Shown here in pieces: positions 652-57,868 of a DNA stretch of 64,000 nucleotides. A program made the translations under genes and the position numbers. The DNA is taken from assembly GCF_004353525.1 (NCBI RefSeq), contig NZ_CP085524.1:2576142-2640141 (forward strand), given 5' to 3'. Positions within the stretch are counted from its first letter, which is position 1; every line of letters begins with the position of its first letter. The notes below the pieces were generated by a model. That model did no database searches, had not been told where the DNA came from, and saw only the letters and a program-made list of their open reading frames with translations. The stretch comes from Zhaonella formicivorans. Lineage in GTDB: Bacteria > Bacillota > DUOV01 > Zhaonellaceae.

Positions 652-992
652 GAGCGGGTCATCCTGGCGGCGGTGAAATTAAGCTGTTCCTCCAGCACCC
701 CGTTGACCTCTTTTAAAGCAGTTTCCACACTGGCCACGTCACCCACAATGACCAGTGTGCCGCTGAACCTGTCCAAAAAGCCGATTTCCACTTCCGATGC
801 CTTTGTGGCAATATCGGCCGCGATTATCACTGTCTCTCCGGGAGTAAGGGTAAGAATGCCAATGGCTCCTTTGTCTTCAAGCCCTAGCTTTTCAAAAATC
901 GCTTTTACCGGATGGGCAATTACATGGGCCAAAGTAACCTGTTTACCAGGTACATACTCTTGAATCAACCGCTGTTTTTTCTCCACGTCCAC
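648..992 (-). CDS. eutS: EutS bacterial microcompartment shell protein
   Basis: A 114-residue single-BMC-domain protein with the family signatures [13 protein letters not shown] at the N-terminus, [12 protein letters not shown] in the middle and [14 protein letters not shown] near residue 70. EutS forms bent hexamers of the ethanolamine microcompartment shell. A GTG start at 992 lies behind GGAG 11 bases upstream; a second GTG two codons later is possible. It is coupled to eutP by a 4-base overlap. Other shell genes (eutL, eutM, eutN) are not in the window and are expected to the left of position 1. Confidence 0.93.
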
Positions 993-1379
993 GACTTACT
1001 CAACTCCTAAGGGCTTAGCCTCTTGGAAACCGCTGCCATAATCCGGAATTTCCTTGCTTGCTAACTAATTTCCCACCTCCCGGTCCGGAACAACATTCAA
1101 GAAGTCTTCTGGCTGCAGTATTATGCCGTAAATTGTGCTTCCTGGTAACGCAAACCGAATTTGCGCCGTACCTCAGTAAAACCCTTGTTCCAACACCGTA
1201 CCTTGCAAGAAGCATGCCACCGGATAGCGTTACCGAAAACCCTCTTAGGACAAGGAAGCAGACTATTGCCGCCGCGGCACAATGAGTCAAATTTAACTTA
1301 CTTAAGTCACCGGTGCTCCGGCTGGTAATAAATTTGCCGGAGCAGCACAAAGGAGGTCGCTTTTTAATCCTATTGCCAA
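993..1379 (-). other. 387-base gap between eutC and eutS, no convincing gene
   Basis: No protein with recognisable features is encoded here. A reading frame of 111 codons exists on the minus strand but has no ribosome-binding site and unlikely composition (rich in Cys, Arg and Gly). On the minus strand the region shows a stem (TGCTCCGGC paired with GCCGGAGCA, 1313-1344) and a long-range inverted repeat GGTAACGC/GCGTTACC spanning about 1144-1234, so a structured leader ahead of eutS is possible. I looked for a cobalamin-riboswitch B12 box and did not find one. Confidence 0.4.
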
Positions 1380-2294
1380 CTATTCCAAATTCACTCCTGA
1401 GGCTTTTTTATCCAAAACCTTCTTCAATAGGGTGACTAAATATGCTCCCGCTTCCGGCGCAGGGGTACCGCCTTTGTGGATGTTGCTGACTACCGTTCTT
1501 TCGCTTTCGATCATTCCCTGTCTCGGGTTATAGGCCAGATAAGCGCTTAAGCTTTCAGCGGTGCCAAGTCCCGGTCTCTCACCCAGGAAAATAATGGCAA
1601 CTTTAGGTTTCAACTCTTCTCCGATGACATCCATCACCGCTACCCTCCCGTATTTGACAAAAACAGGAGTGCCAATCTTTATACCCATACCACTTAAACC
1701 TTGCATTAAAGCAGGGAGCAAATCGGGGAGATTTGCCTCCACGGCCTTGCTGGATAACCCGTCGGAGACAATGATTTGTACATCGGCTCCTTTTTGAAAT
1801 GACTTTCGCAGCTTTTCCAAACTCTCCGTCGACAACTTCCTGCCCAGGTCCGGTCGGGTCAAATATTCATCCTTATCCCGGCAGGCGCTTTGCAGCTTGA
1901 CTAAGTTTAACTTTTGAATAAATTCCTCTGAAACTTCACTCAGCACGGCATCCTGGGCGGTAGCATGGTCAGCCCGGAAGCGCAACAGAGTTTCTGTCAA
2001 GGGTCGGGAACCGGTTCGCCAAACCCCAATCCTGGCAGGGGTTGCCATTTTCATTTCCTCATAAAGTGTTTTATTGACCGGATTAGGTACTTGAAGGTGC
2101 TTTTGCAGGTCGATCGCCGTCAAGTCCTTGAGCCTCGTCTCCTCCCATCCCCCGTTTTGAGCCGGAGCCGGATCGTCAACCGGCTTCCCCGGGATATAAC
2201 CCGCAGTCGTAACCGGGGCACGAAAATTTTCTGACTTTGACATTTCGGCTAAAACCTGTTCAACCACCAGCCTGATATTGTCTTCCAAACCCAT
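1380..2294 (-). CDS. eutC: Ethanolamine ammonia-lyase small subunit
   Basis: A 304-residue EutC. It closes the adenosylcobalamin site of the (EutB-EutC) lyase. Visible family signatures include the cobalamin-contacting region VSDGLSSKAVEANL (about residues 176-190), GRVAVMDVIGE (about 214-224), ERPGLGTAESLSAYLAY (about 238-254) and the terminal RTVVSNIHKGGTPAPEAGAYL. The N-terminal 60 residues form the usual variable linker. Start is ATG with GAGGTGATC upstream, 9 bases after the eutB stop, so the two subunits are made from one transcript. Confidence 0.95.
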   Translation of the reverse strand: MGLEDNIRLVVEQVLAEMSKSENFRAPVTTAGYIPGKPVDDPAPAQNGGWEETRLKDLTAIDLQKHLQVPNPVNKTLYEEMKMATPARIGVWRTGSRPLTETLLRFRADHATAQDAVLSEVSEEFIQKLNLVKLQSACRDKDEYLTRPDLGRKLSTESLEKLRKSFQKGADVQIIVSDGLSSKAVEANLPDLLPALMQGLSGMGIKIGTPVFVKYGRVAVMDVIGEELKPKVAIIFLGERPGLGTAESLSAYLAYNPRQGMIESERTVVSNIHKGGTPAPEAGAYLVTLLKKVLDKKASGVNLE

Positions 2295-2303
2295 AGGATC
2301 ACC

Positions 2304-3668
2304 TCATCTTGTAAAAATAGTTGCATCTCCGGCCAGGGAAGTCAGTTTGCCGTGCTGCATAATGCCCATTTTTTCCAGCCAGGCCTCAAATTCCGGCAGA
2401 GGTCGCAATTTCAAAAGTTCCCTTAAAGCCGCCACATCATGGTAGCTGGTGCATTGATAGTTAAGCATCACATCATCACCCATGGGTATCCCCATAAAGT
2501 AAGTACACCCCGCATTTGATAAGAGAACCGCCAGGTTTTCAATATCATTCTGATCAGCTTTCATGTGGTTTGTATAGCAGGCATCACAGCCCATGGGAAT
2601 ACCAGTAAGCTTGCCCATAAAATGGTCCTCCAGGCCGGCCCTGATCACCTGGCGGGAGTCATACAAGTATTCTGGACCGATAAATCCGACTACCGTATTG
2701 ACCAAAAAGGGCTTATAGTGCCGCGCCAGGCCATAGCACCTGGCTTCCATTGTCACCTGATCGGCACCATGATGGCCGTCCGACGATAGTTCCGATCCTT
2801 GCCCTGTTTCAAAGTACATAATGTTGGGGCCGGTAGCCCTGCCTTCCTTCAAACCCAGCTCGTATGCCTCATCCAGGATGGCTTTACTCACTCCAAAAGC
2901 TTCATTGGCTTTTTGACTACCCGCTATAGATTGGAAGAGGCAGTGAACCGGTGCCCCTTGCCGTAATGCTTTCATTTGGGTGGTAATATGAGCCAGCACG
3001 CAAATCTGGGTAGGAACATTCCACTCGGTGACAAAATTATAGATGGCCTCCAAGCTGCGCATGGTAGCAGGTACTGAATCATCCACAGGGTTCAGGCCTA
3101 TCACTGCGTCACCGGTACCGTAAGCCAATCCTTCCCTGATACTGGCGATTATCCCTTCCGGCGAATCAGTTGGATGGTTAGGCTGCAGTCTTGAGGCCAG
3201 GGTGCCGGGCAAACCGATAGTTGTATTGCAGTGGGCTGTTACTCGCATCTTTGATGCTCCCAGGATCAGGTCCAAGTTGCTCATCAGCTTGGCAACAGCA
3301 GCCACCATTTCTGCGGTTAAACCCCGGCTGATGCGCCGTATATCTTCTCCCGTCGTCTCGGAACTCAGGATATACTCTCTGAAATGGGCAACAGTCCAGT
3401 TTTTAATGCTGCTGTAGATGAACTCATTAACATCGCCGTCAATAATCCGGGTCACCTCATCCTCCTCGGGCGGCACCACCGGATTTTTCCTCAGGTCTTC
3501 CAGAGTTAATTCCGACAGTACGTATTTTGCCGCAATCCTTTCCTCAGCGCTATTAGCGGCAATTCCCGCCAATGTGTCCCCTGATTTAAGTTCATTTGCT
3601 TTGGCCAGAACCTCTTTCACATCTTTAAAACAATAGGTCTGTCCAAAAAGGCGCGTTTTTAAAATCAT
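2304..3668 (-). CDS. eutB: Ethanolamine ammonia-lyase large subunit (complete copy)
   Basis: A 454-residue EutB, matching the usual family length. The TIM-barrel signatures are present, including HCNTTIGLPGTLASRLQPN (about residues 146-164), GLNPVDDSVP, FETGQGSELSSDGHHGADQ and GCDACYTNHMKADQND. EutB binds ethanolamine and the adenosylcobalamin base-on cofactor. I chose the ATG at 3668 because AGGGGGATAAAAAG precedes it; an upstream GTG would add six residues without its own site. It follows the permease by about 170 bases and precedes eutC by 9, consistent with an operon with leader control upstream. Confidence 0.96.
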   Translation of the reverse strand: MILKTRLFGQTYCFKDVKEVLAKANELKSGDTLAGIAANSAEERIAAKYVLSELTLEDLRKNPVVPPEEDEVTRIIDGDVNEFIYSSIKNWTVAHFREYILSSETTGEDIRRISRGLTAEMVAAVAKLMSNLDLILGASKMRVTAHCNTTIGLPGTLASRLQPNHPTDSPEGIIASIREGLAYGTGDAVIGLNPVDDSVPATMRSLEAIYNFVTEWNVPTQICVLAHITTQMKALRQGAPVHCLFQSIAGSQKANEAFGVSKAILDEAYELGLKEGRATGPNIMYFETGQGSELSSDGHHGADQVTMEARCYGLARHYKPFLVNTVVGFIGPEYLYDSRQVIRAGLEDHFMGKLTGIPMGCDACYTNHMKADQNDIENLAVLLSNAGCTYFMGIPMGDDVMLNYQCTSYHDVAALRELLKLRPLPEFEAWLEKMGIMQHGKLTSLAGDATIFTR

Positions 3669-3791
3669 CTTTTTATCCCCCTGCACCTACTCTATAGTGA
3701 ACATTTTCCAGTAGTTCTGTAATAAGATTAAATATTTTAAAAACAAATTTAGATACTACAAAACCGAATACATCTACAGATCCTTTTTTCA

Positions 3792-3810
3792 GGGGCAGCA
3801 TTGCTGCCCC
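3792..3810. repeat. Perfect palindrome between the permease and eutB
   Basis: GGGGCAGC and GCTGCCCC face each other around a 3-base centre. In the direction of the eut transcript the stem is followed by TGAAAAAA rather than a U-run, so it is not a normal terminator. It may act in mRNA processing or stability, allowing different amounts of permease and lyase from one message; that is inference. Confidence 0.5.
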
Positions 3811-3841
3811 CACTTGGAATATGTTTCTATAACTTGGAAAA

Positions 3842-5206
3842 TTACAACTCATCCAACACGCCAAATTCTTCTTCAAAAGGCCTAAGCTCTTTTCTGCCCT
3901 CCACCAGGTACCAGAGAATTGCCAATCCGTATATTAACGCGACCCATTTAACAGCGGTGAGGTTATAAACAATTACACTGTATAGGCAAAACAGACCGGC
4001 AGCAAAACTTATTCCCCCTACCAACGGACCATTGGCCACCTTGAATGGTCTCTTCAGGTCAGGTTCCTTCTTGCGCAACACAAAGAAACTTATTAAGCTG
4101 ATAAGATAGAGTGCCACTGCACCAAATACTGAAATAGTTATGACCACTGATGTCAACCCGGTGACAGCAGCCCCAATGCCTATAAGACCTGGGACTAAGA
4201 GTGCCCAGTGGGGTGTATGATACCTGGTATTGACTTGTGACAAAAACTTAGGCAGGTATCCCGTACGGGCCATGGCATAGGTCTGGCGTGAATAACCCAC
4301 GATTATGCCGTGGAGTGAAGCTATCAGGCCGAATAAACCAATAAAATTAACCGCCAGCACAACAAGATTTCCCTGTCCATAAACCTGGGCTAGAGCAATA
4401 GGCAGCGGGAAATCAACTGCAGTTACCAGATTGTAGTCCGCAATTCCTGCAGTTAAGAACAGTGTTAAACACATCATCACCACCAAGGTGCCCATGCCGC
4501 TTAGGAAACCCTTAGGAATATCTTTCTGCGGGTTGAGCATTTCTTCCGCCGCCATGGCACCGCCTTCAATGGCCAGGTAAAACCAGATAGCAAACGGGAT
4601 AGCAGCCATGATTCCTCCATAACCGTTAGGTAAAACCGGCTCCTGGGCTACTCTGGCCCAGCTGAAATGAGGGGCTGCCGCAATCCAAAAGATAGCAAGG
4701 CCAATTAAGGCAATTATTGTTACAATCAGTTCAAATGTGGCCGAAGTCTTCATCCCCAAAAAGTTAATAAAGATGAAAAACAAAAAGGCAACCACCGCAG
4801 CGGCCAGTGTCGGAATTTGAGGGACCATATAGTGGATATATCCACCTACAGCAAGCGCAATGGCGGGTGGAGCAAACATAAATTCAATCAGACAGCTGAT
4901 GCCGTTCATATATCCCCAAAATGGTCCAAGTGCCCGCCTGGCATAGGCCGAAGGGCCCCCGGCATGAGGAATGGCTGTAGCCAGTTCCGAATAGCAGAAG
5001 ATAAAGGTTGCATAAAAGATGATTACAGGAATCGTGGAAATGGCCAGGCCAATAGGTCCTCCGGCCCCAAAACCATAGCTCCAGCCGAAATAATTACCGG
5101 AGATGACCAGGCCTACAGCCAGTGCCCATAAATGAATTGGTTTTAACGATCTTGCCAGTTTAACTTCCTGATGTGCCGTGCTTAGATTGTTCTCCAATTG
5201 TGCCAT
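3842..5206 (-). CDS. APC-superfamily amino-acid/ethanolamine permease
   Basis: A 454-residue membrane protein with about 12 hydrophobic segments, of the amino acid-polyamine-organocation superfamily. Early TM motifs ALAVGLVISGNYFGWSYGF and GGPSAYARRALGP resemble the ethanolamine permease (Eat) group, and its place directly upstream of eutBC supports ethanolamine import; substrate is inferred from context. The ATG at 5206 is chosen because GAGGAGAAATCTT precedes it, rather than the upstream in-frame start at 5221. It is the first gene after the terminator-bearing leader at 5296-5340, so its expression probably depends on EutV antitermination. Confidence 0.85.
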   Translation of the reverse strand: MAQLENNLSTAHQEVKLARSLKPIHLWALAVGLVISGNYFGWSYGFGAGGPIGLAISTIPVIIFYATFIFCYSELATAIPHAGGPSAYARRALGPFWGYMNGISCLIEFMFAPPAIALAVGGYIHYMVPQIPTLAAAVVAFLFFIFINFLGMKTSATFELIVTIIALIGLAIFWIAAAPHFSWARVAQEPVLPNGYGGIMAAIPFAIWFYLAIEGGAMAAEEMLNPQKDIPKGFLSGMGTLVVMMCLTLFLTAGIADYNLVTAVDFPLPIALAQVYGQGNLVVLAVNFIGLFGLIASLHGIIVGYSRQTYAMARTGYLPKFLSQVNTRYHTPHWALLVPGLIGIGAAVTGLTSVVITISVFGAVALYLISLISFFVLRKKEPDLKRPFKVANGPLVGGISFAAGLFCLYSVIVYNLTAVKWVALIYGLAILWYLVEGRKELRPFEEEFGVLDEL

Positions 5207-5295
5207 AAGATTTCTCCTCACTTTCTTTAAAATTTGTTAGCATCATGAAACGGACAAAATTACCCAGGTCCCTCCTTTCTTTTGCATGGCGCAGA

Positions 5296-5350
5296 ACAAA
5301 AAAGCCCTTATCCTACCCGCAATCCGGGTAGAATAAGGGCCCTTTTGCCC
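5296..5350 (-). promoter_or_regulatory. Attenuator in the leader of the permease-eutBC operon
   Basis: A strong stem (GCCCTTAT...ATAAGGGC with an inner CTACCCG/CGGGTAG arm, 5304-5340) followed on the minus strand by TTTTTTGTT forms an intrinsic terminator between eutV and the permease start. This is where EutV-type ANTAR regulators act in other Gram-positives, by stabilising small hairpins that exclude the terminator. The segment 5337-5350 can fold as GGGC-AAAAGG-GCCC overlapping the terminator arm, a candidate regulatory hairpin. It does not match the known A1/G4 loop rule well, so the terminator is seen but the antitermination is inferred. Confidence 0.65.
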
Positions 5351-5468
5351 GCTATTCCTTTGTCAAGCTCGTGATACTTAAATACTTATTTCGACAAGCA
5401 AGAAAAAATTCCTGTTGTTATAGAAAATCTCAAAATATTTTTTTGTTTTTTTAAATTCAGGTCTAAAA

Positions 5469-6056
5469 TTACATGTCAGCCTTCTCCTTCTCCTCTTTAA
5501 CTATCTGAGCAGCCCTTTCCGCCAGTGTCATTCTTAGACTCATAGCTTCCTGCACCAATTTGTGGTGAGCGTCATACTCGGAAATATTACACTTCTTGGC
5601 CAAAATTGCCCGGGCATGGGCAATAATTTTCTGCCCTTTCAACTTGTTCTGCGTATCCTTCAACTCCTGCTGCATGCTTTGCATTTCCTTCCAACGGGCA
5701 TAAGCAATTTGTACTGCTGGCAGCAAATCCCGCTCCGTTATTGGTTTAACCAGGTAGCCGTATACTGCTACTTTTTCCGCCCGGCTGATAAAGTTGGGCT
5801 GGCTATAAGCCGTTAAGAGAATTACAGGGATGTTCATGGTCTGCATGATCTTGGCCACTTCCAAACCGTCTAGACCCGGCATTTTTACATCCAGAATAAC
5901 CAGGTCTGGCTGTAGTTGTTTGGCCAAATCAACCGCTTTCAACCCGTTGTTTACTTCCCCGCACACCACATGCCCTGCCGCTTCCAGCATTTCCTTAAGG
6001 TCCAGTCTGGTCAGGGATTCATCCTCAGCTATCATGATAGAAAGTTTCCTCATCAT
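5469..6056 (-). CDS. eutV: EutV-like response regulator with ANTAR RNA-binding domain
   Basis: A 195-residue two-domain protein. Residues 5-120 are a receiver domain with the acidic pair (AEDE), phosphoacceptor in LVILDVKMPGLDG (about Asp55) and the switch Thr and Lys in LLTAYSQ and LVKPI. After a short coiled linker the C-terminal ~55 residues (QKIIAHARAILAKKCNISEYDAHHKL) match the ANTAR fold. ANTAR regulators bind paired hairpins in nascent RNA and prevent termination. The start overlaps eutW by 4 bases. The obvious target is the terminator leader at 5296-5340 immediately downstream. Confidence 0.93.
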   Translation of the reverse strand: MMRKLSIMIAEDESLTRLDLKEMLEAAGHVVCGEVNNGLKAVDLAKQLQPDLVILDVKMPGLDGLEVAKIMQTMNIPVILLTAYSQPNFISRAEKVAVYGYLVKPITERDLLPAVQIAYARWKEMQSMQQELKDTQNKLKGQKIIAHARAILAKKCNISEYDAHHKLVQEAMSLRMTLAERAAQIVKEEKEKADM

Positions 6057-7468
6057 TCTTCCTCCAGACTATGTTTTGGAAAGCATACCATGGCCCGGGT
6101 CATCCCGCCGATGCGTTCCAAACGGAAAAAGCCGTCCAGCTGTTCCCTGACAAGGGAGTTGACGATTTGTAATCCCAGTCCACGTGTTAAACCCGGTTCC
6201 GGCCCGGCACCGCTGTCACTTACCGTTAAATGGATCATTCCGCTGTGCTCCTTCAAATGAATAACGACTTCCCCGGCTCCCTGCGGTCCCACCCCATGTT
6301 TCAGGCTGTTAGTAACCAGTTCATTGATTACCAGGGCCAGGGGTACGGCTTGCCGGCTGGGCAGGTGCACAGACTGCCCCTCTACCCGGGTTACTATTTT
6401 ATCCCTGGCAAGAGCAGTGCTTTCAATCAAACAATCCAGAAGGCGATGGGACAACTCGATTAAATTAATAGTTTCCCAGGTTTGGCGGGCAAATACATCA
6501 TGGACTAAAGCGATGGAGATAATGCGGTTAATGCTTGCTGCAAATTCGGCCTTAACTATTTCCGATATGGAACGGCGCATCTGCAGCCGGAGAAGGGCAG
6601 CGATATTTTGCAGGTTATTTTTTACCCGGTGATGGATCTCCCGGATAATAATGCTCTTGGCATTCAGCTCCTGCTCCTTTTTCCTCAGGTCAGTAACATC
6701 CTGAACGGAAATGGCGCAGCCGCTCAATTCCCCCCGGGTCACCAGCGGGTAGGATTGCAGGCGATAACATTTTTCTCCCATGGTCAGTTCCACAGGACTC
6801 TGCAAATGCTCCAGAAGATCTTCCAGAGACGAGCAACCCTGAAAGAAATTAAAAAAATCACTACCCAAAGCCTCGGCTGCACAGTGGGTTTTATATACCC
6901 TGGCCGCATCCTTGTTAGCGTAAGTAATCTTGCCCTGTTGATTGAGAACAAAAATTCCATTGCCAAGCCAATCTTCAAAGGTTGATTCAGTCATGGATAA
7001 ATACATCAAGGTACTGCTCAACTGCTCAGCTGTATGGCTTAAAAACTCCACCCTTTCTTCCTGCTGCAGTTCCTTGGAGATATCCCGCTCCATAATCAAA
7101 ACGCCTATGATCTTCTCTTGGCCGTTGGTAATAGGTACCACCGTCTGAGCGATAGGCACCCCTTCCTGGCTGACACCTCTCACATCCCTGGTAGTTTCCC
7201 CGGTTTTCAATGTCCTGTAAACTGCCGGTTCACTGGTAGGATAAGCCAATTGCCCCACAACGCTGGTGGAGTAAAGGGACTTGTTCCTAGGTCTGGCCCA
7301 AGCCAGTACTATGGCATCAGTTTGGTTTTTAGTCAAGGCATCAATAAAAATATCATTGCCTGTTAGCTCTGCAATACCGGGCAACTGGACAGCGACACTT
7401 TCCAAAATTTCAATATCGTTCCCGCTCAGGTCAGTATATTCCCTACATAACTCCTTAATAGTACTCAT
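6053..7468 (-). CDS. eutW: EutW-like sensor histidine kinase
   Basis: A soluble kinase of about 471 residues with no membrane segments. The N-terminal region (MSTIKELCREYTDLS) resembles EutW and carries the family's ethanolamine-type GAF/PAS-like sensory region, followed by a PAS region near the middle. The HisKA_2/HWE-type phosphoacceptor is EIHHRVKNNLQNI and the ATPase shows NELVTNSLKHG and GLGLQIVNSLV. It should sense ethanolamine and phosphorylate EutV. I chose ATG 7468 by homology to EutW proteins; the longer frame starting at 7525 has no ribosome-binding site. A sigma-54-like promoter lies at 7564-7581. Confidence 0.9.
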   Translation of the reverse strand: MSTIKELCREYTDLSGNDIEILESVAVQLPGIAELTGNDIFIDALTKNQTDAIVLAWARPRNKSLYSTSVVGQLAYPTSEPAVYRTLKTGETTRDVRGVSQEGVPIAQTVVPITNGQEKIIGVLIMERDISKELQQEERVEFLSHTAEQLSSTLMYLSMTESTFEDWLGNGIFVLNQQGKITYANKDAARVYKTHCAAEALGSDFFNFFQGCSSLEDLLEHLQSPVELTMGEKCYRLQSYPLVTRGELSGCAISVQDVTDLRKKEQELNAKSIIIREIHHRVKNNLQNIAALLRLQMRRSISEIVKAEFAASINRIISIALVHDVFARQTWETINLIELSHRLLDCLIESTALARDKIVTRVEGQSVHLPSRQAVPLALVINELVTNSLKHGVGPQGAGEVVIHLKEHSGMIHLTVSDSGAGPEPGLTRGLGLQIVNSLVREQLDGFFRLERIGGMTRAMVCFPKHSLEEE

Positions 7469-7563
7469 CGCCAGAACCCCCAAGTGTAGCTGTTCATATT
7501 TCCATGTGCAAGGGACATAGGCCATATTTTTACTGTAATATTCTGCTATTTTTCGAAAATTCC

Positions 7564-8381: not shown

Positions 8382-9830
8382 CTACGCTATACCCTGCCAA
8401 ACGGAATCCCCTGCTACTAAACCGGGGAAGTGCTCCCGAATCTTAGCATCGAGTTCGGGGGAAAACTTGGCTTTATTTTCCTGAGAAAGAATCCTGTCAG
8501 CCTCTTGCAGGGCACGGGCGTGAGCATCCGGTCGTCCCGCACCTTCCCACTGGCTGCGCATTTCGCGGTTGGCAATTTTAGGCAGGACTGCGGTGCTGCG
8601 CATATTGAGCAAGGTGTGCTCCAGTTCCATGTAGGAGCCTCCCGGACCAACTTGCTTAATCAAATCAAGGCAAAGGTTTTCTTCACTAAACTCTATGCCC
8701 TTTTTCAGGTGCTTCAGCATCAAAGCTATTTCATTGTCGATTACAGCCTTGGCAAAATCGAATGCCATTAGGCTTCCCAAGAGCCCTCCCATATTAAACA
8801 GGTCAGCCCCTGCCAGCAAGGCAGCTGTGGTGTTCATGCCTGTCTCGTAGCCGCACTGGGCGTCATTGGAGTGGGAGTTGGTCAGGCCGATATAGCCTCC
8901 CGAAGGCACATTGTAGAAGCGTGCCATCTCCGTATGGCCCATCTGCAAAATACCTGTTTCGATGGCACCCGGCGCATAAGCTCCTGTACGCATATCGGCT
9001 ACTGTTGATAAGACCGCATAAATCATGGGGGCACCCGGACGAATCAGTTGAATCAAGGTAGCCAAGGCTAAAAACTCGGCATTACCCAGAGTCAGTGTCC
9101 CCAGCAAGCTCATGGGTGAAGTCAGCCCGGCGTTGGGAACGATAGTCCCGTAGACGGGGAGCCCCTGTTCCGTCAAATAGATCACCGCTTCAGTTGATTC
9201 CACGTCCATAGTCAAGGGGGAAACTACCGGGCAGTAGTGGTGGTTAATGAAAGGACGCTCCCTGTATGCTGCTTCACTTCCTGCAATCAAAGCCCCCAGC
9301 TCCAGCACCTGATGCAAATCATGCATATTAGGGGTGTTGCTCCTGACTGGTTTCAGGCAGTTTTTCAAGGCAGGGTAGAAACGGGACAAACTAAACTGCC
9401 CTTTTGGTGCGTCATCGGCTAAAGTGGAGATGGAAAAAACATCGAAACCAGGCAGTTCATTAATTAGACGGGCTATGTTTGCTATATCGGTGGATGTAGC
9501 CCGCCTTTCTTTGCCTGTTTTGGGATCGATGATATTGGGGGCCGAACTTCCTGTAACAACCACAGGCCTGTCCCCGGGCAAAGTCACATCGTATTCCGGA
9601 TCCCGGGCAGTAAATCTATAAGTGGGCGCAAAGGATTTGCGGCACTCCTCCACAACATTCCTGGGGATTTTCACCAGACCGCTTCCATTGTCCACTTTAC
9701 AGCCGTGTTTAGCATATATAGCACGAGCCTTCTCGTTATGCACCAGTAAGCCCACGTTCTCCAAAATTTCCAGAGAAGCATCGTGAATTTTTTCCACTTC
9801 AGCTTGAGTAAAGAATCTTGTAAATTGCAC
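8382..9830 (-). CDS. MttB-family methyltransferase without pyrrolysine
   Basis: About 482 residues, full length for the trimethylamine methyltransferase (MttB/COG5598) superfamily. Aligned to the pyrrolysine MttB at 14963-16474 the region around the amber codon reads GGYIGLTNSHSNDAQ, so it has an ordinary residue where MttB has Pyl. Non-Pyl members such as MtgB, MtcB and MtpB demethylate glycine betaine, carnitine or proline betaine to a corrinoid protein; a quaternary amine is therefore the likely substrate, but which one is unknown. GTG 9830 has GGGG 8 bases upstream; the alternative ATG is at 9851. No corrinoid protein gene accompanies it. Confidence 0.88.
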   Translation of the reverse strand: MQFTRFFTQAEVEKIHDASLEILENVGLLVHNEKARAIYAKHGCKVDNGSGLVKIPRNVVEECRKSFAPTYRFTARDPEYDVTLPGDRPVVVTGSSAPNIIDPKTGKERRATSTDIANIARLINELPGFDVFSISTLADDAPKGQFSLSRFYPALKNCLKPVRSNTPNMHDLHQVLELGALIAGSEAAYRERPFINHHYCPVVSPLTMDVESTEAVIYLTEQGLPVYGTIVPNAGLTSPMSLLGTLTLGNAEFLALATLIQLIRPGAPMIYAVLSTVADMRTGAYAPGAIETGILQMGHTEMARFYNVPSGGYIGLTNSHSNDAQCGYETGMNTTAALLAGADLFNMGGLLGSLMAFDFAKAVIDNEIALMLKHLKKGIEFSEENLCLDLIKQVGPGGSYMELEHTLLNMRSTAVLPKIANREMRSQWEGAGRPDAHARALQEADRILSQENKAKFSPELDAKIREHFPGLVAGDSVWQGIA

Positions 9831-9851
9831 ACTTACATCCCCTTTTTGCAT

Positions 9852-11482: not shown

Positions 11483-12721
11483 TTACGCGGGGCACTTTTC
11501 AGTAACTGCAATAGACCTTGCCATCTCGGCAATTTCCGCTTTATGGGCTTCAATATACCTCATCAGTTTTACTTGGTGGGACAGGTAAGCAGTGTATTCA
11601 TAGACGTTCAGGTTAAGGATTTCAGGGTAATAGGCAGCTACCGCCCAATTGATCAGGTAGATATTTCCTGCCTGGATCATAGCAGGCAGGCATTGGATTT
11701 CAGTTTCGTTTAACGGTGGCAGCCCTCCCAACTCCTGCAGTTTCTTCTGGTAAGCATCGAGAAAAACAGCGCATTTATCAATGCGTAGTACCCCGTCGCT
11801 TTCAGGTTCCCAGGAGCTACAGAAGTAAACAAGCCCCAGACCCAAATCAAAGAGCCGTAAGTCGATCTTGGCCCAGTCAAAATCAAATATTCCCACAGCC
11901 TGTTCGTTTTCGTATTTAAAGTTGCCGGGGTGAAGATCGCAGTGAATAGGGTTCATGGGCATTTTGTTAATTGCTTCTTCCGGTATGGACTCGACGGTTA
12001 GATCGATTACTTTCAAAATGTCATCAAGATTTTTTACGAAATAATCGTGAAACTGGTTTCCTGTCAGGTCTTGTTCTGCGTAATCCCTAAAGGTTTGCTT
12101 CAATGTCGGAAGAAATTCCATGATTTTAGGCTCGACCCTTTCCAGCCCTTTGGGGTCAAAGTTTCTTGTGGAATTATGGAAAGTGGCCAGCACTTCCGCT
12201 GAACTGGCATATTCTTTGTCAGTCAAATAAGGAGTAACCCAGGTATACTTATCTTCCCCTGAAAGATATTCATAAATGGCATAATACCGGTCCTGAGAAG
12301 TGCCGTTTAATTGTTCCGGCATTTTGACAAAAGTGTGGCCTTCTTTAGTATGGATAAGTCCGGCAGCAATTGTTAAACCATTGGCAATAGCGCACTCGAT
12401 CATCGAATGCTCCAGCATTATCTCTTTTTCAGTAATTCCTTTTTTGTACTTTCTCACAAAATATTCATGCCGCTCTCCGTCTTTTTCAACATAAATTCCA
12501 AAACTTTTATTAACATACCCGCCGAAAATTTCAAACACATCTATAACTTTACCTATGTCATAATGGTTCACCAGGTCTACTACCTGGCTCCGCACCAGGG
12601 CCCTTTCCATGGTGTCGTAAAAATTAACGGCGATCTCCTTCAATTTTTCGCTTTGGGAAAATAAAGCAAAGATTTGGTTTGTGCTCAGCTCTTTAAGATG
12701 CAGCATCCTGCTAGTATCCAT
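11483..12721 (-). CDS. Choline/homoserine-kinase-like phosphotransferase (APH fold)
   Basis: A 412-residue APH-family kinase. The nucleotide-binding N-lobe contains GGYVNKSFGIYV (about residues 67-78) and the catalytic loop is HCDLHPGNFKYE (Brenner motif HxDxxxxN) followed by the metal-binding IFDFDWAKIDLRLFDLG. Such enzymes phosphorylate hydroxyl groups of choline, ethanolamine, homoserine or aminoglycosides. Given two methylamine methyltransferases and an ethanolamine operon nearby, an amino-alcohol substrate is attractive but unproven. ATG follows AGGAGGACACAAG. It is the first gene after the minus-strand sigma-54 promoter at 12928-12945. Confidence 0.75.
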   Translation of the reverse strand: MDTSRMLHLKELSTNQIFALFSQSEKLKEIAVNFYDTMERALVRSQVVDLVNHYDIGKVIDVFEIFGGYVNKSFGIYVEKDGERHEYFVRKYKKGITEKEIMLEHSMIECAIANGLTIAAGLIHTKEGHTFVKMPEQLNGTSQDRYYAIYEYLSGEDKYTWVTPYLTDKEYASSAEVLATFHNSTRNFDPKGLERVEPKIMEFLPTLKQTFRDYAEQDLTGNQFHDYFVKNLDDILKVIDLTVESIPEEAINKMPMNPIHCDLHPGNFKYENEQAVGIFDFDWAKIDLRLFDLGLGLVYFCSSWEPESDGVLRIDKCAVFLDAYQKKLQELGGLPPLNETEIQCLPAMIQAGNIYLINWAVAAYYPEILNLNVYEYTAYLSHQVKLMRYIEAHKAEIAEMARSIAVTEKCPA

Positions 12722-12927: not shown

Positions 12928-12945
12928 TAGCAAAAACCATGCCAA
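12928..12945 (-). promoter_or_regulatory. Sigma-54 (-24/-12) promoter of the kinase-transporter-HTH unit
   Basis: On the minus strand TTGGCATGGTTTTTGCT carries GG and GC exactly ten bases apart and matches YTGGCACGNNNNTTGCW at nearly every position. It lies about 200 bases upstream of the kinase start. The neighbouring sigma-54 activator at 13303 is the likely activator. Confidence 0.75.
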
Positions 12946-13302: not shown

Positions 13303-14721
13303 GTGACTGCAAAAAAGAAAAGCAAAGCTAAAACTGACTTGGATTACGATACCCTTAAAAAGATTCTTGATTATTCTCACGATGAAATTTATGTTACTAA
13401 TGCCGAGGGGATTGTAATCTACGTCAACAAGGCGTGCGAAAGGCATTACGGGGTTAAAGCTGAAGAAATAATCGGGAAAAGCTCCAAGGAACTCTCGGAA
13501 AAGAAGTACTGGACTCCCAGGCTAAGCCCCATCGCCCTGGAAAAGAAAAACAGCTTCACCTTGGAACAGAAAACTTGCCTTGGCAAAACGCTTTTGACAA
13601 CAGCCACCCCCGTTTACGACAGCAACGGCAATATTGAACTGATCATAGAAAATTCCCGGGATATAACCGAATCGGAAGGACTCAAACACCAGCTGGAAAT
13701 CAGCAAGCAATTGTTGAAACGCTACAAACTGGAAGTGGAGGAACTGCGTAAAAAAGAAGTAAGCATCCCAGACTTCGTATCCCAGAGCAAAAAAATGACC
13801 AACTTGCTTGGAATGGCTACACGTATTGCCCAAACAAATTCAACGGTTTTGCTGCTGGGCGAGTCGGGGACCGGCAAAGGCGTGCTGGCCAAATATATTC
13901 ACAACAACAGTGCCCGTAAAGACGGCCCATTTATCGCCATCAACTGTGCCGCGATCCCGGCAGAACTGATGGAGTCAGAACTGTTCGGCTACTCCAAGGG
14001 TACTTTCACCGGTGCCAGCGAAAAAGGAAAAATCGGTCTGATTGAACTGGCCGACGGAGGTACCCTGTTCCTGGATGAAATTGCCGAAATACCCATCAGG
14101 CTTCAGGCAAAACTGCTGCAAGTGCTGCACGAGAAACAATACTACAAGGTTGGGGGCAGAGAAGTGAAAAAGGTCAACTGCCGGATTATTGCCGCCACCA
14201 ACCGTAATTTACAGGAAATGATCCAGAAAGGGGAATTCAGGGAAGACCTCTATTACCGGCTAAATACCTTTGAAATAGAAATTCCCCCGCTCCGGGAAAG
14301 GACAGATGATATTCCCCACCTGGTTGATTATTTCCTTAACAAGCATGATCAAAAATACAATACAGCCCATCAAATTACGCCTGAGTGCATGGACATCTTG
14401 ATGCACTATCCCTGGCCAGGCAACGTGCGCGAGCTGGAAAACACCATTGAGCGGCTGGTGGTAATGGTACAGGAGAAAATCATCGATGAATGCCACTTGC
14501 CAAAAACATTTAAGCACCAGGCCAAGCCTGATTCTTTAATCATATTTCCCAAACAGCTTCCGCTGGAAGAAGCCATTAACGAAGTTGAAAAAAATTTAGT
14601 GATCAACTTATACAAGGAGCTGGGCAGTTCCTACAAAGTGGCCAAGGCTTTGAAAACCAGCCAGAGTAAGGCCAGCAGGCTGATCAGGAAATACTGCGGC
14701 AGTCAATCAAAAAAAACTTGA
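13303..14721 (+). CDS. PAS-sensing sigma-54-dependent transcriptional activator
   Basis: A 472-residue bacterial enhancer-binding protein. Residues 20-130 form a PAS domain (DEIYVTNAEGIVIYVNKACERHYG), then a short coiled coil, then the AAA+ domain from about residue 165 with Walker A GESGTGKGV, the sigma-54-contact loop GTFTGA (GAFTGA with Ala to Thr), Walker B GGTLFLDEIAEI and the arginine-finger region YYRLNTFEIEIPPLRER. The C-terminus is a Fis-type HTH (SSYKVAKALKTSQSKASRLI). The GTG start follows GGAGGTAAAACGAA. Near-consensus -24/-12 promoters on both sides (12928-12945, 14847-14863) make it the likely local regulator of methylamine genes. Confidence 0.93.
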   Translation: MTAKKKSKAKTDLDYDTLKKILDYSHDEIYVTNAEGIVIYVNKACERHYGVKAEEIIGKSSKELSEKKYWTPRLSPIALEKKNSFTLEQKTCLGKTLLTTATPVYDSNGNIELIIENSRDITESEGLKHQLEISKQLLKRYKLEVEELRKKEVSIPDFVSQSKKMTNLLGMATRIAQTNSTVLLLGESGTGKGVLAKYIHNNSARKDGPFIAINCAAIPAELMESELFGYSKGTFTGASEKGKIGLIELADGGTLFLDEIAEIPIRLQAKLLQVLHEKQYYKVGGREVKKVNCRIIAATNRNLQEMIQKGEFREDLYYRLNTFEIEIPPLRERTDDIPHLVDYFLNKHDQKYNTAHQITPECMDILMHYPWPGNVRELENTIERLVVMVQEKIIDECHLPKTFKHQAKPDSLIIFPKQLPLEEAINEVEKNLVINLYKELGSSYKVAKALKTSQSKASRLIRKYCGSQSKKT

Positions 14722-14753: not shown

Positions 14754-14781
14754 CTTGCCTGCGCCGCGCGGCGGTTGCAAG
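14754..14781. promoter_or_regulatory. GC-rich dyad upstream of the mttB promoter
   Basis: A 28-base imperfect palindrome with arms CTTGC/GCAAG around a GCGCCGCGCGGCG core, 67 bases upstream of the -24 element of mttB. Its place suits an enhancer site for the activator just upstream. No identical copy was found near the other promoter. Confidence 0.45.
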
Positions 14782-14846: not shown

Positions 14847-14863
14847 CTGGCACAGAAATTGCA
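14847..14863 (+). promoter_or_regulatory. Sigma-54 (-24/-12) promoter of mttB
   Basis: CTGGCACAGAAATTGCA is almost the perfect RpoN consensus, with GG (14849-14850) and GC (14861-14862) ten bases apart. It lies about 100 bases upstream of the TTG start at 14963. Confidence 0.85.
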
Positions 14864-14962
14864 ATTATAATCGGCATTAACATCTCCAGCTTTTCGGAGG
14901 AGGTGAGGTATAGCCTTTTACAGCATTGTCTCACTTTTTATATTACTACGGAGGTGAATAGA

Positions 14963-16474
14963 TTGGCAAAATGGGGAATTCACGCCGGTTCCCGACGCAT
15001 GGAAGGAATCGGCCTGAACATGTTCACAGATGATGAATTGTTTGACATCCATTGCGCAACCCTGGATGTCCTCTGGAACGTAGGCATAAAAATGGAGAGC
15101 GCTAAAGGACGCCAAATTTTCGGGGATAATGGCTGTCACGTAGATGAGGAAACTCACATCGTGAAAATTCCGGCCTACCTGGTGGAGGATGCGCTGCGCT
15201 CCATTCCGAAAACCTTCCGGGCTTGCGGAAGAGACCCGGAAAAAGACTGGATTTGCGAAGGAAATAGGACAGGCTTCGTCAACTTCGGAGAAGCTGTGAA
15301 AATGATCGACCCCTGGACCCGGGAAATCAGAAAAGCCAAAAGAAAAGACGTTGATGACGTAACCAGGATCTGCGATTATTTAGATAACATCGTGGTGTTT
15401 GAAAGGGCAATCGCTCCGTCGGAAGTGGATCCGGACGTGGCCCAGGTGCATATTGCCGAATCCTTCTACAACAATTGCACTAAGCACGCCTACATCGGCA
15501 TGAACCGTCCCGAAAACATCCGGGCTGCCTTCAAGATGGGAGCTGTGGTAGCCGGCGGGGAAGACAAGTTCAGGGAGAGACCTCTCTTCTCCACCAGCTG
15601 TGACCCCATCGCTCCACTGGTGCAATCGGAAGGTGCCACTGACTCCCTAATTCAGGCCATTGAGCTCGGGGTTCCTGCAAAGATTAACTCCATGGGTTTG
15701 GCCGGGGGAACTACCTGCGTACACCTGCAGAGCACTTTGGTAACACATAATGCTGAGATTTTAAGCATGTTTGTTTTATCGCAGCTGGTGCGCAAGGGCC
15801 ATCCCATGGTTTACGGAACATCAACCGCCATGATGGATCTCAGGACCACCCTGGCTTCCGTTGGAACTCCGGAGCTGGCGCTTTTCAGCGCTGCGGTGGC
15901 TAAGCTCTGTCAATATTACATGATACCCAGCTGGGTTGCCGGTGGGTAGACTGACAGCAAATTACCTGATGCCCAAGCAGCCCACGAGTTTACCTTAACC
16001 GCTATGTTACCAGCGTTAGCAGGTGCTAACATGATCTATGGTTTAGGTATGCTCGAAGGCGGTCTGACTTGGGACTACGCTCAGTTGGTGATGCAGGATG
16101 AAATGGCAGAAATGATCCTGCACTGCGTCAAGGGAATGCCTGTCAGTGACGAAAAAATGGCTATGGAAGTTATCAAGTCGGTAGGGCCCGGCGGAGAATT
16201 CCTAAGCCATGAGCACACTTACAGGACTTTCCGGGAGCTTTCCGCACCCAAACTTCTGGACCGCTGGAACCGGGATACTTGGGAGGCCAATGGCAGCAAG
16301 GATATTGTGGAAAAAGCTTACGAAAAGGCTATCAGTATTCTGGAAAACCACAAGCCTGCTCCGCTGCCGGAGCATATCCAGAAGCAGCTGAAGGATATCG
16401 TAGCCGAAGCTGAATTGGAAACAGCGGAAATCAAAGCCAAAGAAAGAGAGAAATTGATGAAAAGGTCGGGTTAA
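14963..16474 (+). CDS. mttB: Trimethylamine methyltransferase MttB with in-frame amber codon (pyrrolysine)
   Basis: One 503-residue protein if the TAG at 15947-15949 (codon 329) is read as pyrrolysine. Both halves lie in the same frame and the join reads IPSWVAGG-Pyl-TDSKLPDAQAAHE, the active-site context of MttB, where Pyl is expected near residue 330. MttB transfers a methyl group of trimethylamine to the cobalt of its corrinoid protein MttC. The TTG start at 14963 follows GGAGGTGAATAGA; the longer frame from 14903 has no site. It is preceded by a sigma-54 promoter and followed by the pyl genes. mttC, mtbA and ramA are absent from the window. Conventional gene callers would split it into two pieces (14903-15949 and 16004-16474). 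Confidence 0.96.
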
Positions 16475-16475
16475 A

Positions 16476-16505
16476 GAAAAAGGCTGGCGAGGAGCCAGCC
16501 TTTTA
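16476..16505 (+). terminator. Terminator of mttB
   Basis: AAAGGCTGGC and GCCAGCCTTTT form the stem directly after the mttB stop. The terminal-repeat element described next begins immediately after the U-run. Confidence 0.85.
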
Positions 16506-16642
16506 GACCGTCGATAAACTCTTATTAGCCCGCATGTATTATTTCGCTCTGGACACGCTCGCACGCGTTGACCTTTAACAAAGCTGCCAGCTAGAGCGAA
16601 ACAAGTCCCGCTCCATAATACATACGGGCTTTGTCTACAAGG
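16505..16642. mobile_element. Terminator-associated short inverted-repeat element, copy A
   Basis: About 138 bases bounded by AGACCGTCGATAAAC at the left and TTTGTCTACAAG at the right, the two related end types seen in the copies at 28682-28825 and 35421-35687 but in the opposite orientation. Inside, GCATGTATTATTTCGCTCTG and CCGCTCCATAATACAT form an inner inverted repeat shared with copy B. It has no protein-coding capacity. It occupies the space between the convergent mttB and pylSn 3' ends. Confidence 0.7.
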
Positions 16643-16644
16643 GG

Positions 16645-17010
16645 TTACAAATCAGATCCCCAGTGCTGGTTTAAATAAGTAGCAGAGTATTTTTCCAATT
16701 TCCAAGAGGGAATCCTGCATTTAGGGCATACCCCAAAAAACCACTTATTGCGCAGCCAACGGGCAGCACGGCAGTTTCTGGAATTATGAATGATAAAACT
16801 CTCATTGCAATGGGTAACCACTTCCGCCGAGTTTCCCCTGATCTTCATGGATTTAATCCCGTGCAGCATGCCGCTGCGGGATGGCCAGAGCTTGATCTTC
16901 TCCACCAGCTTAAAAAAATTGACATTTTTGCGATAATAGCGTTTTTTTTCCTTCTTCTCCGCCTGCTGCTTAGGATTATCGGAGGATGCCCTATTTTGTT
17001 CTGTGTTCAT
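16645..17010 (-). CDS. pylSn: Pyrrolysyl-tRNA synthetase N-terminal domain protein PylSn
   Basis: A 121-residue basic protein matching bacterial PylSn, the separately encoded tRNA-binding domain of pyrrolysyl-tRNA synthetase. The first 30 residues are charged and probably disordered; the folded part includes WPSRSGMLHGIKSMKI, the histidine/cysteine cluster VVTHCNESFIIHNSRNCRAARWL and CPKCRIP, which form the zinc site. It binds the T-arm/variable-arm side of tRNA-Pyl. It follows pylSc by 57 bases in the same transcript order (pylT-pylSc-pylSn), differing from Desulfitobacterium, where pylBCD lie between the two. Confidence 0.9.
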   Translation of the reverse strand: MNTEQNRASSDNPKQQAEKKEKKRYYRKNVNFFKLVEKIKLWPSRSGMLHGIKSMKIRGNSAEVVTHCNESFIIHNSRNCRAARWLRNKWFFGVCPKCRIPSWKLEKYSATYLNQHWGSDL

Positions 17011-17067
17011 TCAGGTAACACCTCTTCGCTGCCGGTAGATTGACTTATCGTTACAAACTCCTTCTGT

Positions 17068-17931
17068 TCAAATGTTCAAACGTACTCCGTCAAGGTAGGT
17101 GATGCTTTTGGCCATTCTTTGTATGTTCTGCCCGCCTTCCCTGACCATGAGCAAACGCTCCAGGCCAAACCCTATACCTACCCATGGGTCAACAATACCC
17201 CACTTGTCATCTAAGGGGTGCGGCCCCATGGCTCCGGAACCCAATTCGATCCCGGCTATCACATCCACGGTGTCGCCGTAGACAACCGACTTTTCCGTTA
17301 CTAATTCATAATTGCCAATACCCGCAACCTCCATCACAATAGCAGCCAGCTCCTTTAGCCGACGATGGCGCTGCTCCAAAGGGGTGCCCAGTTCCGTAAG
17401 GTTAAGCATGGTAAACTCATTTAAATGGTGGGCACCTTGGGATTCCTTGCGAAAGCAGGAGCCGATTTCGAAGATCCTGATGGGTTTTTCCCAGAGGCGC
17501 ACCAGCTCTTGCCAGAGGGCATAAAGGTTGGGGGCAAGCATAGGCCGCAAGCATTTCTTATCGTCAACCCAAAACACCTGGGAAAAAAGCGGGTGCTCAT
17601 CGGTGATAGTCATTTTGGCCAGCTGTCCTTTCGATATGATGGTCGGAGTAACTACCTGGACAAACCCCTGGCCTGTTAATGCGTCAACCAGTTTGCTCTC
17701 CAGCTCGCATAAAGCGGGCCGCCTTCTCGTCTCCCGCAATTCCGCCAGTCGTTTTTTCCCGCGGTTGACCAAGAACTTTTCCAGCTTTTGGAAAGCCCGG
17801 TCTCTTTCCCCCGAATCGGGAAAAGTCATATTCTCATGTTCTGCGGGAGCATTTAATTCCCGCAGCCGTTGCCTTTGCACCGCAGTCCAGGTTACGCTCA
17901 ACGAAGCTACCTCCACTTGCTTTTTGAACAC
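17068..17931 (-). CDS. pylSc: Pyrrolysyl-tRNA synthetase catalytic domain PylSc
   Basis: A 287-residue class II aminoacyl-tRNA synthetase catalytic domain, the length of bacterial PylSc. Motif 1 region is VVTPTIISKGQLAKM, motif 2 is FEIGSCFRKES with HHLNEFTMLNL, and motif 3 is GIGFGLERLLMV. It charges tRNA-Pyl with pyrrolysine using ATP. It begins 40 bases after tRNA-Pyl on the same strand. The start is TTG- or ATG-proximal MFKKQVEVASL at 17931. Its substrate must come from PylBCD, none of which lie in this window. Confidence 0.95.
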   Translation of the reverse strand: MFKKQVEVASLSVTWTAVQRQRLRELNAPAEHENMTFPDSGERDRAFQKLEKFLVNRGKKRLAELRETRRRPALCELESKLVDALTGQGFVQVVTPTIISKGQLAKMTITDEHPLFSQVFWVDDKKCLRPMLAPNLYALWQELVRLWEKPIRIFEIGSCFRKESQGAHHLNEFTMLNLTELGTPLEQRHRRLKELAAIVMEVAGIGNYELVTEKSVVYGDTVDVIAGIELGSGAMGPHPLDDKWGIVDPWVGIGFGLERLLMVREGGQNIQRMAKSITYLDGVRLNI

Positions 17932-17971
17932 TCAGCAGTCACGCCAGCTAGCTGCACCGTCGTTAGTCGTT

Positions 17972-18043
17972 TGGCGGGGAGTCCGGGAGTTTCACCCGGC
18001 TACGCGAATTTAGAGTCCGCGCGATCCATGCGATCCACCCCCC
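17972..18043 (-). tRNA. pylT: tRNA-Pyl, anticodon CUA
   Basis: A 72-base tRNA gene with encoded CCA. On the minus strand it begins GGGGGGTGGATCG, has the anticodon loop CTCTAAA (anticodon CUA) and ends GGGTGAAACTCCCGGACT then CCCCGCCA. The acceptor pairs GGGGGGT-like with ACTCCCC. The tight architecture (a very short D-arm and one base between acceptor and D stems) and the sequence around the anticodon are close to the known Desulfitobacterium tRNA-Pyl. It sits directly upstream of pylSc. Confidence 0.97.
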
Positions 18044-20707: not shown

Positions 20708-20949
20708 AACCGGTACCTACTTTCAAAAAATACCCTTCTCCTATATCCTAACACAAAAATTTCCATTTGCAAGGTCGATTCAGCCGATATGCGCAGATAA
20801 TTGTAGATAATTTTCGACAAAGAAAAAAGAACCGACTTGTAAAATTTCAAAAATATTTACTTTACATCATAAAAAAATCGTAGTAAAATATTATATATCT
20901 TATTGCTTGAAAATTTTTCCTGCTGTAAGTACAATTCTATACAATTCCT

Positions 20950-21130
20950 TAGCGCTGAATTTTTGCCTGAAAAGCGGGGGAACCAACTTCTTGGGGTGAA
21001 TCCTTTGTTCGAAGTTAGAAGTGCGAAGTTCGAAGTGTGAAACTTCATCCAACCTCTGACTTTGTAAAAGGTAGGGCTATCTTTCGGTCCGAACCCGTCA
21101 GCTAACCTCGTAAGCGTGGAAAGGGAGTAG
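20950..21130 (+). ncRNA. c-di-AMP riboswitch (ydaO/yuaA type) with an enlarged variable stem
   Basis: The conserved blocks of the ydaO aptamer are present in order: AGCGCTGAATTTTTGCCTG, GCGGGGGAACCA, GGGGTGAATCC, GGTAGGGCTATC, CCGAACCCGTCAGCTAACCTC and GTAAGCG. Between the second and third blocks lies an insert (about 21008-21050) made of degenerate copies of GAAGTTCGAAGTGC. It precedes a terminator at 21191-21222 and an amino-acid ABC transporter operon. c-di-AMP binding normally favours the terminator, so the transporter should be shut off when c-di-AMP is high. Confidence 0.92.
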
Positions 21131-21190
21131 CTAAATATACATAATCTACCGCTGTTTAATTACAGTGGATGGTAATTATTGCTGTCTTTT

Positions 21191-23558: not shown

Positions 23559-23782
23559 CCCAGCCCTACCAATTCCAAAGCTGTGTTTACCTGCTCCTTT
23601 GGCGAACATAAATTTTTCGGCCCAAAGCCCCATCTTCAGCCTCACTTAAATGGAAAAGCTGTTTTTGACTGGAATTGCCGCCTTCTTTATTTATTTGGGG
23701 TTTAATGATAGCTAAATTTCTAATCAAACTGCTTTAAAGCAGGAATTAGTAAAAAATTGGCGAATTAAATGCGTTAGTAAAA
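23559..23782 (+). other. Intergenic region after the ABC operon
   Basis: About 220 bases with no gene. A short dyad AACTGCTTTAAAGCAGG lies near 23728-23744. The region presumably contains the promoter of the riboswitch-controlled hydrolase. Confidence 0.4.
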
Positions 23783-23896
23783 ACGCCTAATTTCACCAGA
23801 AAACGGGGGACCCAAGTTCAGGGGTGAATCCATATGGTAGGGCTAGCTTTCAGCCCGAACCCGTCAGCTAACCCCGTAGGCGTAGAAGGCGAGGTA
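23783..23896 (+). ncRNA. c-di-AMP riboswitch (ydaO/yuaA type), aptamer running into the ribosome-binding site
   Basis: Conserved blocks: ACGCCTAATTTCACCAG, ACGGGGGACCCA, GGGGTGAATCC, GGTAGGGCTAGC, CCGAACCCGTCAGCTAACCCC and GTAGGCGTAGAAGGC. The 3' strand merges with GGCGAGGT, the only ribosome-binding site of the hydrolase, and no terminator lies between, so control is probably translational. Cell-wall hydrolases are among the most common ydaO targets. Confidence 0.93.
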
Positions 23897-23901
23897 AAAT
23901 A

Positions 23902-24682: not shown

Positions 24683-24703
24683 ACTTTATAAAGATAAATA
24701 TTT

Positions 24704-24783
24704 TAGGAACTAGAGCAGGCGATCTCTATGGAGATGGGGCCGGGCCTATTTCGGGCAGCAGGTTAAGCGCCTGTGGGACTAGA
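24704..24783 (+). ncRNA. NiCo riboswitch (czcD motif)
   Basis: The conserved core reads ACTAGAGCAGGCGAT, a hairpin CTCTATGGAG, GGGGCCGGGC, GGGCAGCAGG and GTGGGACTAG, the four-way-junction pattern of cobalt/nickel-sensing NiCo RNAs. Its 3' end overlaps the terminator stem at 24765-24804, so metal binding should release the terminator and switch on the exporter. It is placed directly upstream of a CDF exporter, the usual partner. Confidence 0.9.
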
Positions 24784-24822: not shown

Positions 24823-25785
24823 ATGGACGAACAACAACATGTTTCGAGGTTGGACCCAAGAGTAAAGGCCGCAAGAGTCTCAGTGTTAAGCAACACTATT
24901 CTGGTAGCTCTTAAACTGATTGTAGGAGTGCTTATCGGTTCTGTAAGCGTTATCTCGGAAGCCATTCATTCCGCCCTGGATCTGGCGGCGGCATTAATTG
25001 CTTTCTTTTCGCTGAAAAAAGCCGCCAAACCGGCAGATGAACATCACCAGTACGGTCATGGCAAAATCGAAAATATTTCCGGCCTTATAGAGGGACTGCT
25101 AATCTTTTTTGCCGCCATTTGGATTATTTTTGAAGCCTACAAGAAACTTATTTCCGGTGCCCATGTAGAAGGTATTGGTTTAGGTATGGCGGTAATGGCC
25201 GGAGCCGCTACTATCAACTATCTGGTCTCCCGCTACCTCTTCCGGGTGGCGGAAGCTACCGATTCCATTGCCCTTAAAGCTGATGCCCTGCACCTTTCTA
25301 CGGATGTAGTAACCTCTGCCGGGGTAATGGTGGGGCTTGGCCTGATCAAACTGACAGGAATAGAACTGCTCGACCCTTTGGTAGCTGTAGCGGTAGCATT
25401 GTTAATTCTCAAAGCTTCTTTTGAGCTCACTAAAGAAGCATTTCTGCCCCTTTTAGATGTGAAGCTCCCGGAGGAAGAAGAGCGGGCTATAGTGGAAATC
25501 ATTCAGCGCCACGAGGCAAATTACGTGGAATTTCATAAACTTCGTTCCCGCAAAGCAGGGGCGGAACGCCACATCGATTTGCACCTGGTCGTTCCCGAAA
25601 ATAGGCATATAAGCGATATCCACCATATGTGTGACCAAATCGAGCAGGAAATTAAGGAACGTTTTCCTACTTCTCACGTACTAATTCATGCTGAACCATG
25701 CGATCAGGTATGCGTACAGTGCACTTCGCAAGGTCTATGCTCCGATCGGGATCAGGTAAAAAAGCTGTTGCAGCGAAAAAATTAA
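24823..25785 (+). CDS. Cation diffusion facilitator exporter, likely Co/Ni
   Basis: A 320-residue CDF protein with six membrane spans. The metal site signatures HSALDLAAAL and HHQYGHGKIEN in the early half and DALHLSTDVVTS in TM5 are present, followed by a cytoplasmic dimerisation domain ending in Cys-rich CVQCTSQGLC. CDF proteins export divalent metals by proton exchange. The NiCo riboswitch indicates cobalt and nickel as substrates, which fits a cell that uses much corrinoid. ATG after GGAGGTTATTATA. Confidence 0.93.
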   Translation: MDEQQHVSRLDPRVKAARVSVLSNTILVALKLIVGVLIGSVSVISEAIHSALDLAAALIAFFSLKKAAKPADEHHQYGHGKIENISGLIEGLLIFFAAIWIIFEAYKKLISGAHVEGIGLGMAVMAGAATINYLVSRYLFRVAEATDSIALKADALHLSTDVVTSAGVMVGLGLIKLTGIELLDPLVAVAVALLILKASFELTKEAFLPLLDVKLPEEEERAIVEIIQRHEANYVEFHKLRSRKAGAERHIDLHLVVPENRHISDIHHMCDQIEQEIKERFPTSHVLIHAEPCDQVCVQCTSQGLCSDRDQVKKLLQRKN

Positions 25786-57645: not shown

Positions 57646-57742
57646 TGGCGGGAATGGGTGCGAATCGAACACACCAGACGCAAGGTCATTACGTCCCACT
57701 GGATTTGAAGTCCAGGCGGGCCACCAGGCCCAATCCACTCCC
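57646..57742 (-). tRNA. selC: tRNA-Sec, anticodon UCA
   Basis: A 97-base tRNA with an 8-bp acceptor (GGGAGTGG / CCATTCCC), extended D arm, anticodon loop CTTCAAA (anticodon UCA, 57706-57708), a long variable arm (GGGACGTAATGACCTTGCGTC) and T-arm GGTGTGTTCGATTCGCACC, with encoded CCA. Downstream of selB on the same strand. Confidence 0.97.
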
Positions 57743-57862: not shown

Positions 57863-57868
57863 AAAATG

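Follow-up and report, generated by a model that had tools for sequence, protein, structure and literature searches.

Does the genome of Zhaonella formicivorans decode pyrrolysine without the means to make it? The window analysed here, a stretch of 64,000 nucleotides, contains a trimethylamine:corrinoid methyltransferase gene (mttB) with an in-frame amber codon, beside genes for an amber-reading tRNA and its synthetase, while pylB, pylC and pylD are found nowhere within its 64 kb. Pyrrolysine is a rare amino acid, the 22nd, read from UAG. Our analysis makes it very probable that the locus is part of a functional bacterial pyrrolysine (Pyl) system, whose genes are split over two places and which decodes UAG codon 329 of mttB, with a probable sigma-54 control of mttB itself.

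The amber codon of mttB

The mttB frame (14963-16474, + strand) begins at a TTG codon (14963), preceded by a ribosome-binding site (ggaggtg, 14950-14956), and runs to a TAA stop (16472-16474). It contains a single internal stop, the TAG at 15947-15949 (+), which is codon 329 and the predicted pyrrolysine position, and no frameshift. The flanking residues are IPSWVAGG and TDSKLPDAQ, as the original prediction had stated; the frame does remain open beyond the TAG, but over 174 sense codons, the 175 first counted including the stop. With the TAG read through, the protein matches TIGR02369, the model of Pyl-type MttB, over its full length (654.3 bits, for a curated cut-off of 525).

We found 19 genes of the MttB family in the genome, and exactly four of them, the window mttB included, have an internal stop, in each case a single TAG. 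These four TAGs fall in one alignment column, which is shared with the orthologues described below and is where the Rfam model PYLIS_3 (RF02510) begins to match; the codon thus occupies the known Pyl position of MttB, as first proposed. In the window mttB the PYLIS_3 match extends from 15947 to 16046 (+), starting exactly at the TAG, with 96.4 bits. Within the genome, the four TAG genes score 79 to 96 bits and the TAG-free paralogues 30 to 67 bits. Since PYLIS_3 contains few pairs, and paralogues that lack the TAG match it too, though more weakly, we attribute most of this match to coding conservation and see in it no evidence for a Pyl-specific mRNA structure at the codon, an idea that we set aside.

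Could the TAG instead be a premature stop that has turned mttB into a pseudogene, or the boundary between two proteins, the adjoining pyl genes being there by coincidence? TAG does often serve as a genuine stop here: it terminates 103 of 362 long open reading frames (28.5%) sampled from 499 kb. Given that this share is close to the 31.5% expected from base composition, and above those of relatives (24% in Candidatus Formimonas warabiya, 18% in genome G385, 11% in a lower-GC relative that gave no pylS match), we see no hint of TAG being avoided as a stop. TAG being an ordinary stop here, termination must compete with decoding. However, the mttB orthologues of F. warabiya and Sporomusa acidovorans, each 77% identical to the window MttB, contain TAG at the same codon, as do the three paralogues. 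Moreover, constraint does not relax past the TAG: amino-acid identity with the two orthologues is 0.77 before it and 0.77 to 0.78 after it, and dN is 0.16 to 0.18 on either side, compared with a dS of at least 1.6. Purifying selection on mttB is therefore equal on both sides of the TAG. The frame is free of frameshifts, and both the Rfam model and TIGR02369, which describe Pyl enzymes, match across the TAG. We consider a pseudogene or a pair of proteins very improbable. Decoding of the amber codon as pyrrolysine, the central claim of the original prediction, is well supported by the profile match, by the TAG of orthologues and paralogues and by the equal constraint. In the related F. warabiya, a proteome study has detected Pyl-MttB proteins (PMC9768040).

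One TAG also lies within mtbB, which encodes a dimethylamine methyltransferase (TIGR02368, 546 bits for a cut-off of 369). At about 404-408 kb, this gene is grouped with one TAG-containing mttB gene and a gene for a corrinoid protein. Five Pyl enzymes are thus predicted in the genome, four MttB and one MtbB; no mtmB was found there.

Decoding and synthesis genes in two places

The decoding genes lie on the opposite strand to mttB, convergent with it and separated from it by 170 bp, in the order of transcription pylT (18043-17972), pylSc (17931-17068) and pylSn (17010-16645). The first (17972-18043, - strand) encodes an amber suppressor tRNA-Pyl with a CUA anticodon and an encoded CCA end. Its sequence is close to that of other tRNA-Pyl, with a compact body that aligns with nine of them over 72 gap-free columns. 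PylSc (17068-17931, -), the catalytic half of pyrrolysyl-tRNA synthetase, scores 389 bits with TIGR02367 (cut-off 178) and aligns over the whole catalytic domain with the solved PylSc chains 3dsq and 2zni; the pocket motifs are conserved, the window protein keeping LNLTELG, VYGDTVDV and GFGLERLL of 3dsq. PylSn (16645-17010, -), the N-terminal tRNA-binding half, scores 143 bits with TIGR03912 (cut-off 51) and aligns with 5ud5 and 5v6x. A catalytic half with a conserved pocket and a separate tRNA-binding half are what is expected of a split bacterial PylRS, as which we class the pair on sequence grounds. Both pylT and pylSc are present in one copy genome-wide, a second copy of either having been sought in the genome and not found. 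The predicted local arrangement, with pylSn directly after pylSc and no pylBCD between them, was thus borne out.

An imperfect inverted repeat with 16-nt arms (16527-16542 and 16615-16630; AGCCCGCATGTATTAT and ATAATACATACGGGCT) lies between mttB and pylSn, past an apparent terminator hairpin. We also considered a mobile-element origin for the cassette and rejected it: no convincing repeats flank it, and the 16-nt inverted repeat is confined to the mttB-pylSn gap.

The absence of synthesis genes from the 64-kb window raised another possibility, that of an orphan decoding cassette, supplied with pyrrolysine from outside or using a tRNA charged with another amino acid. We searched the whole genome, a single contig of 3,314,304 bases that is 99% complete, and found pylB (512 bits), pylC (468 bits) and pylD (289 bits), all over their curated cut-offs, in a tight pylB-pylC-pylD operon at about 698,412-701,590, which is 1.42 Mb from the window cassette if the contig is circular. 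The claim that pylBCD is missing therefore holds as a local fact only; for the organism it does not, and a genome devoid of pylBCD, the finding that was to count against pyrrolysine decoding, is not what we observe. Unless this operon is inactive, it refutes the orphan cassette, to which we give hardly any credence. Judged by gene content, the headline of decoding without synthesis is wrong at the genome level: the pyl gene set is complete and merely split, and does not form a contiguous cluster of the pylTScBCDSn or pylSnScBCD type. Annotation by gene neighbourhood can thus wrongly call a pyl system incomplete.

In the split system that we favour, pylT, pylSc and pylSn would provide tRNA-Pyl and its two-part synthetase, and the distant pylBCD operon would produce pyrrolysine from lysine. 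We infer that the tRNA is charged with this pyrrolysine and reads UAG codon 329 of mttB, as well as the amber codons of the three mttB paralogues and of mtbB. Pyrrolysine in the active site would then allow the methyl group of trimethylamine, the presumed substrate, to be handed to a corrinoid protein.

Gene order in other genomes

For comparison we took 31 further pyl+ genomes, 21 of them out of 398 spread across the phylum and ten obtained by scanning species genomes. In each, pylC, pylD and pylSn were sought, and the order was read from the retrieved stretches. Gene orders vary greatly among them, as already reported for bacterial pyl genes (PMC3941956). The window's genome is the only one of the 32 in which pylT and both synthetase halves are together and all three synthesis genes elsewhere, a count that is approximate, several genomes being drafts.

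This layout is rare, yet it has a precedent. The original prediction had taken known bacterial clusters to place pylBCD between pylSc and pylSn. This is right for the Gram-positive type, pylScBCDSn, exemplified by Desulfitobacterium hafniense, which has the same gene set and the same PylSc family as the window and differs from it in precisely this placement (PMC2933860); as a general rule it is too narrow, since a pylTScSn cassette with a separate pylBCD was published in 2010 for a deltaproteobacterial symbiont of a worm (PMC2933860). There, too, the tRNA and both synthetase halves are together and the biosynthesis operon apart, but that symbiont belongs to another phylum and the two parts are on different contigs of a genome that is not closed, whereas the window lies on a single-contig chromosome and its cassette is convergent with mttB. 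The present genome thus adds a single-contig example of the pylTScSn/pylBCD split.

Relatives exhibit partial versions. F. warabiya DCMF, which has the closest PylSc found (77% identity), shares with the window the TAG-containing mttB orthologue and an adjoining orthologous sigma-54 activator, but its order is pylT-Sc-B-C-Sn, its pylD and a second pylT lie 1.18 Mb away, and a sigma-54 site precedes its pylT. The second tRNA-Pyl of this genome (9760-9831 of the retrieved stretch L204, at about 5.058 Mb) is more diverged and comes immediately behind the detached pylD; next to it, in turn, are genes for a sigma-54 activator and two MttB proteins. In S. acidovorans, mttB is likewise convergent with pylSn and keeps its TAG, but the pyl genes form two adjacent units, pylB-C-D-Sn and pylT-Sc; each of the two is preceded by a separate sigma-54 site, and mttB has one as well. 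In Chloroflexota metagenome-assembled genomes (L069-L073), pylSc is the only pyl gene of its contig, and pylC and pylD are together on another, which in three of these genomes also contains pylSn; no tRNA-Pyl was detected by ARAGORN in the stretches retrieved from them.

The question arises as to how the two groups of genes came to be apart. They may have come from separate donors rather than from one split cluster, a scenario that concerns origin and is compatible with a functional split system. It would fit the grouping of PylSc with Formimonas, G059 and a Desulfitobacterium-like/Sporomusa set, compared with that of PylC with G059 only (support 91/83). However, in the trees of PylSc, PylB, PylC and PylD the organism falls in or near the same broad relatives each time, with no strongly supported conflict, and partial splits exist in relatives, as with the lone pylD 1.18 Mb off in F. 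warabiya. Because the four trees do not conflict in any well-supported way, we tend to favour, without regarding it as proven, the splitting of one inherited set, and hold two acquisitions to be rather unlikely.

Sigma-54 sites and a candidate activator

A sigma-54 (-24/-12) promoter of exact consensus (TGGCACAGAAATTGCA, 14848-14863, +) precedes the mttB start by 99 bp. It directly follows a gene for a PAS-AAA+ sigma-54 activator (13303-14721, +), a candidate regulator of mttB whose best NCBIfam match is PrdR, below the cut-off of that model. Some 66 bp upstream of the promoter, a 28-nt interrupted palindrome (CTTGCCTGCGCCGCGCGGCGGTTGCAAG, 14754-14781) is a candidate activator-binding site; a search for it before pylT of relatives did not find it there. 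The site and the nearby activator suggest that mttB is turned on by sigma-54 RNA polymerase together with this PAS-type protein, and the signal would be trimethylamine or a related amine. Orthologous activators (583 to 700 bits) are present near mttB orthologues and pyl genes in F. warabiya, G059 and Sporomusa.

Sites scoring at least 19.5 of 21 were found no more than 250 bp upstream of nine of 28 pyl transcription units of relatives, for 0.29 expected from the background of the same loci with scoring weights of our own. The corresponding binomial probability of 7e-12 is overstated, as the genomes are related, the weights are ours and we devised the test when the first sites were already known to us. 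In five relatives a site lies 17 to 48 bp before pylT, that of G059 being weaker (18 of 21). Upstream of pylT and pylB of the window organism no sigma-54 site was found, the best scores being 14 and 15 of 21, nor was a sigma-70 promoter recognised before either gene.

It is possible, although we put this forward tentatively, that in many Bacillota pyrrolysine decoding is switched by sigma-54, the pyl units and mttB sharing promoters under an amine-sensing activator, so that the meaning of UAG would depend on diet. Sigma-54 would once have governed the whole system; in the window organism the split would have been accompanied by its loss from the pyl genes, mttB having kept it, and UAG, which still closes 28% of the genes, might then be always ambiguous. 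In the literature searched we found no paper that connects pyrrolysine with sigma-54 or rpoN. The sites before the pyl units of relatives offer a testable mechanism for an expansion of the genetic code that depends on the growth substrate, of which we saw no description there.

A second strong sigma-54 site (TGGCATGGTTTTTGCT, 12929-12944, -) precedes, by about 208 bp, a series of leftward genes: a kinase-like gene (11483-12721), an EamA transporter, a 101-aa ORF, a non-Pyl MttB homologue (8382-9851) and a HAD phosphatase. The position of the activator gene (13303-14721), between this site and that of mttB, means that it may control both.

Adjoining the methyltransferase genes is an ethanolamine utilisation-like region (214-7525, -), with EutC-like (1380-2294) and EutB-like (2304-3686) genes, a permease (3842-5221), an ANTAR response regulator (5469-6056) and a histidine kinase (6053-7525). 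Farther on, a tRNA-Sec (57646-57742) is accompanied by selB-like (57869-59881) and selA-like (59775-61184) genes (57646-61184, -), so that the window has decoding genes for selenocysteine as well as for pyrrolysine. Three riboswitches (20943-21132, 23774-23898 and 24701-24783, +) comprise two of the c-di-AMP type and one NiCo, the latter upstream of a gene for a likely cation efflux protein (24823-25785).
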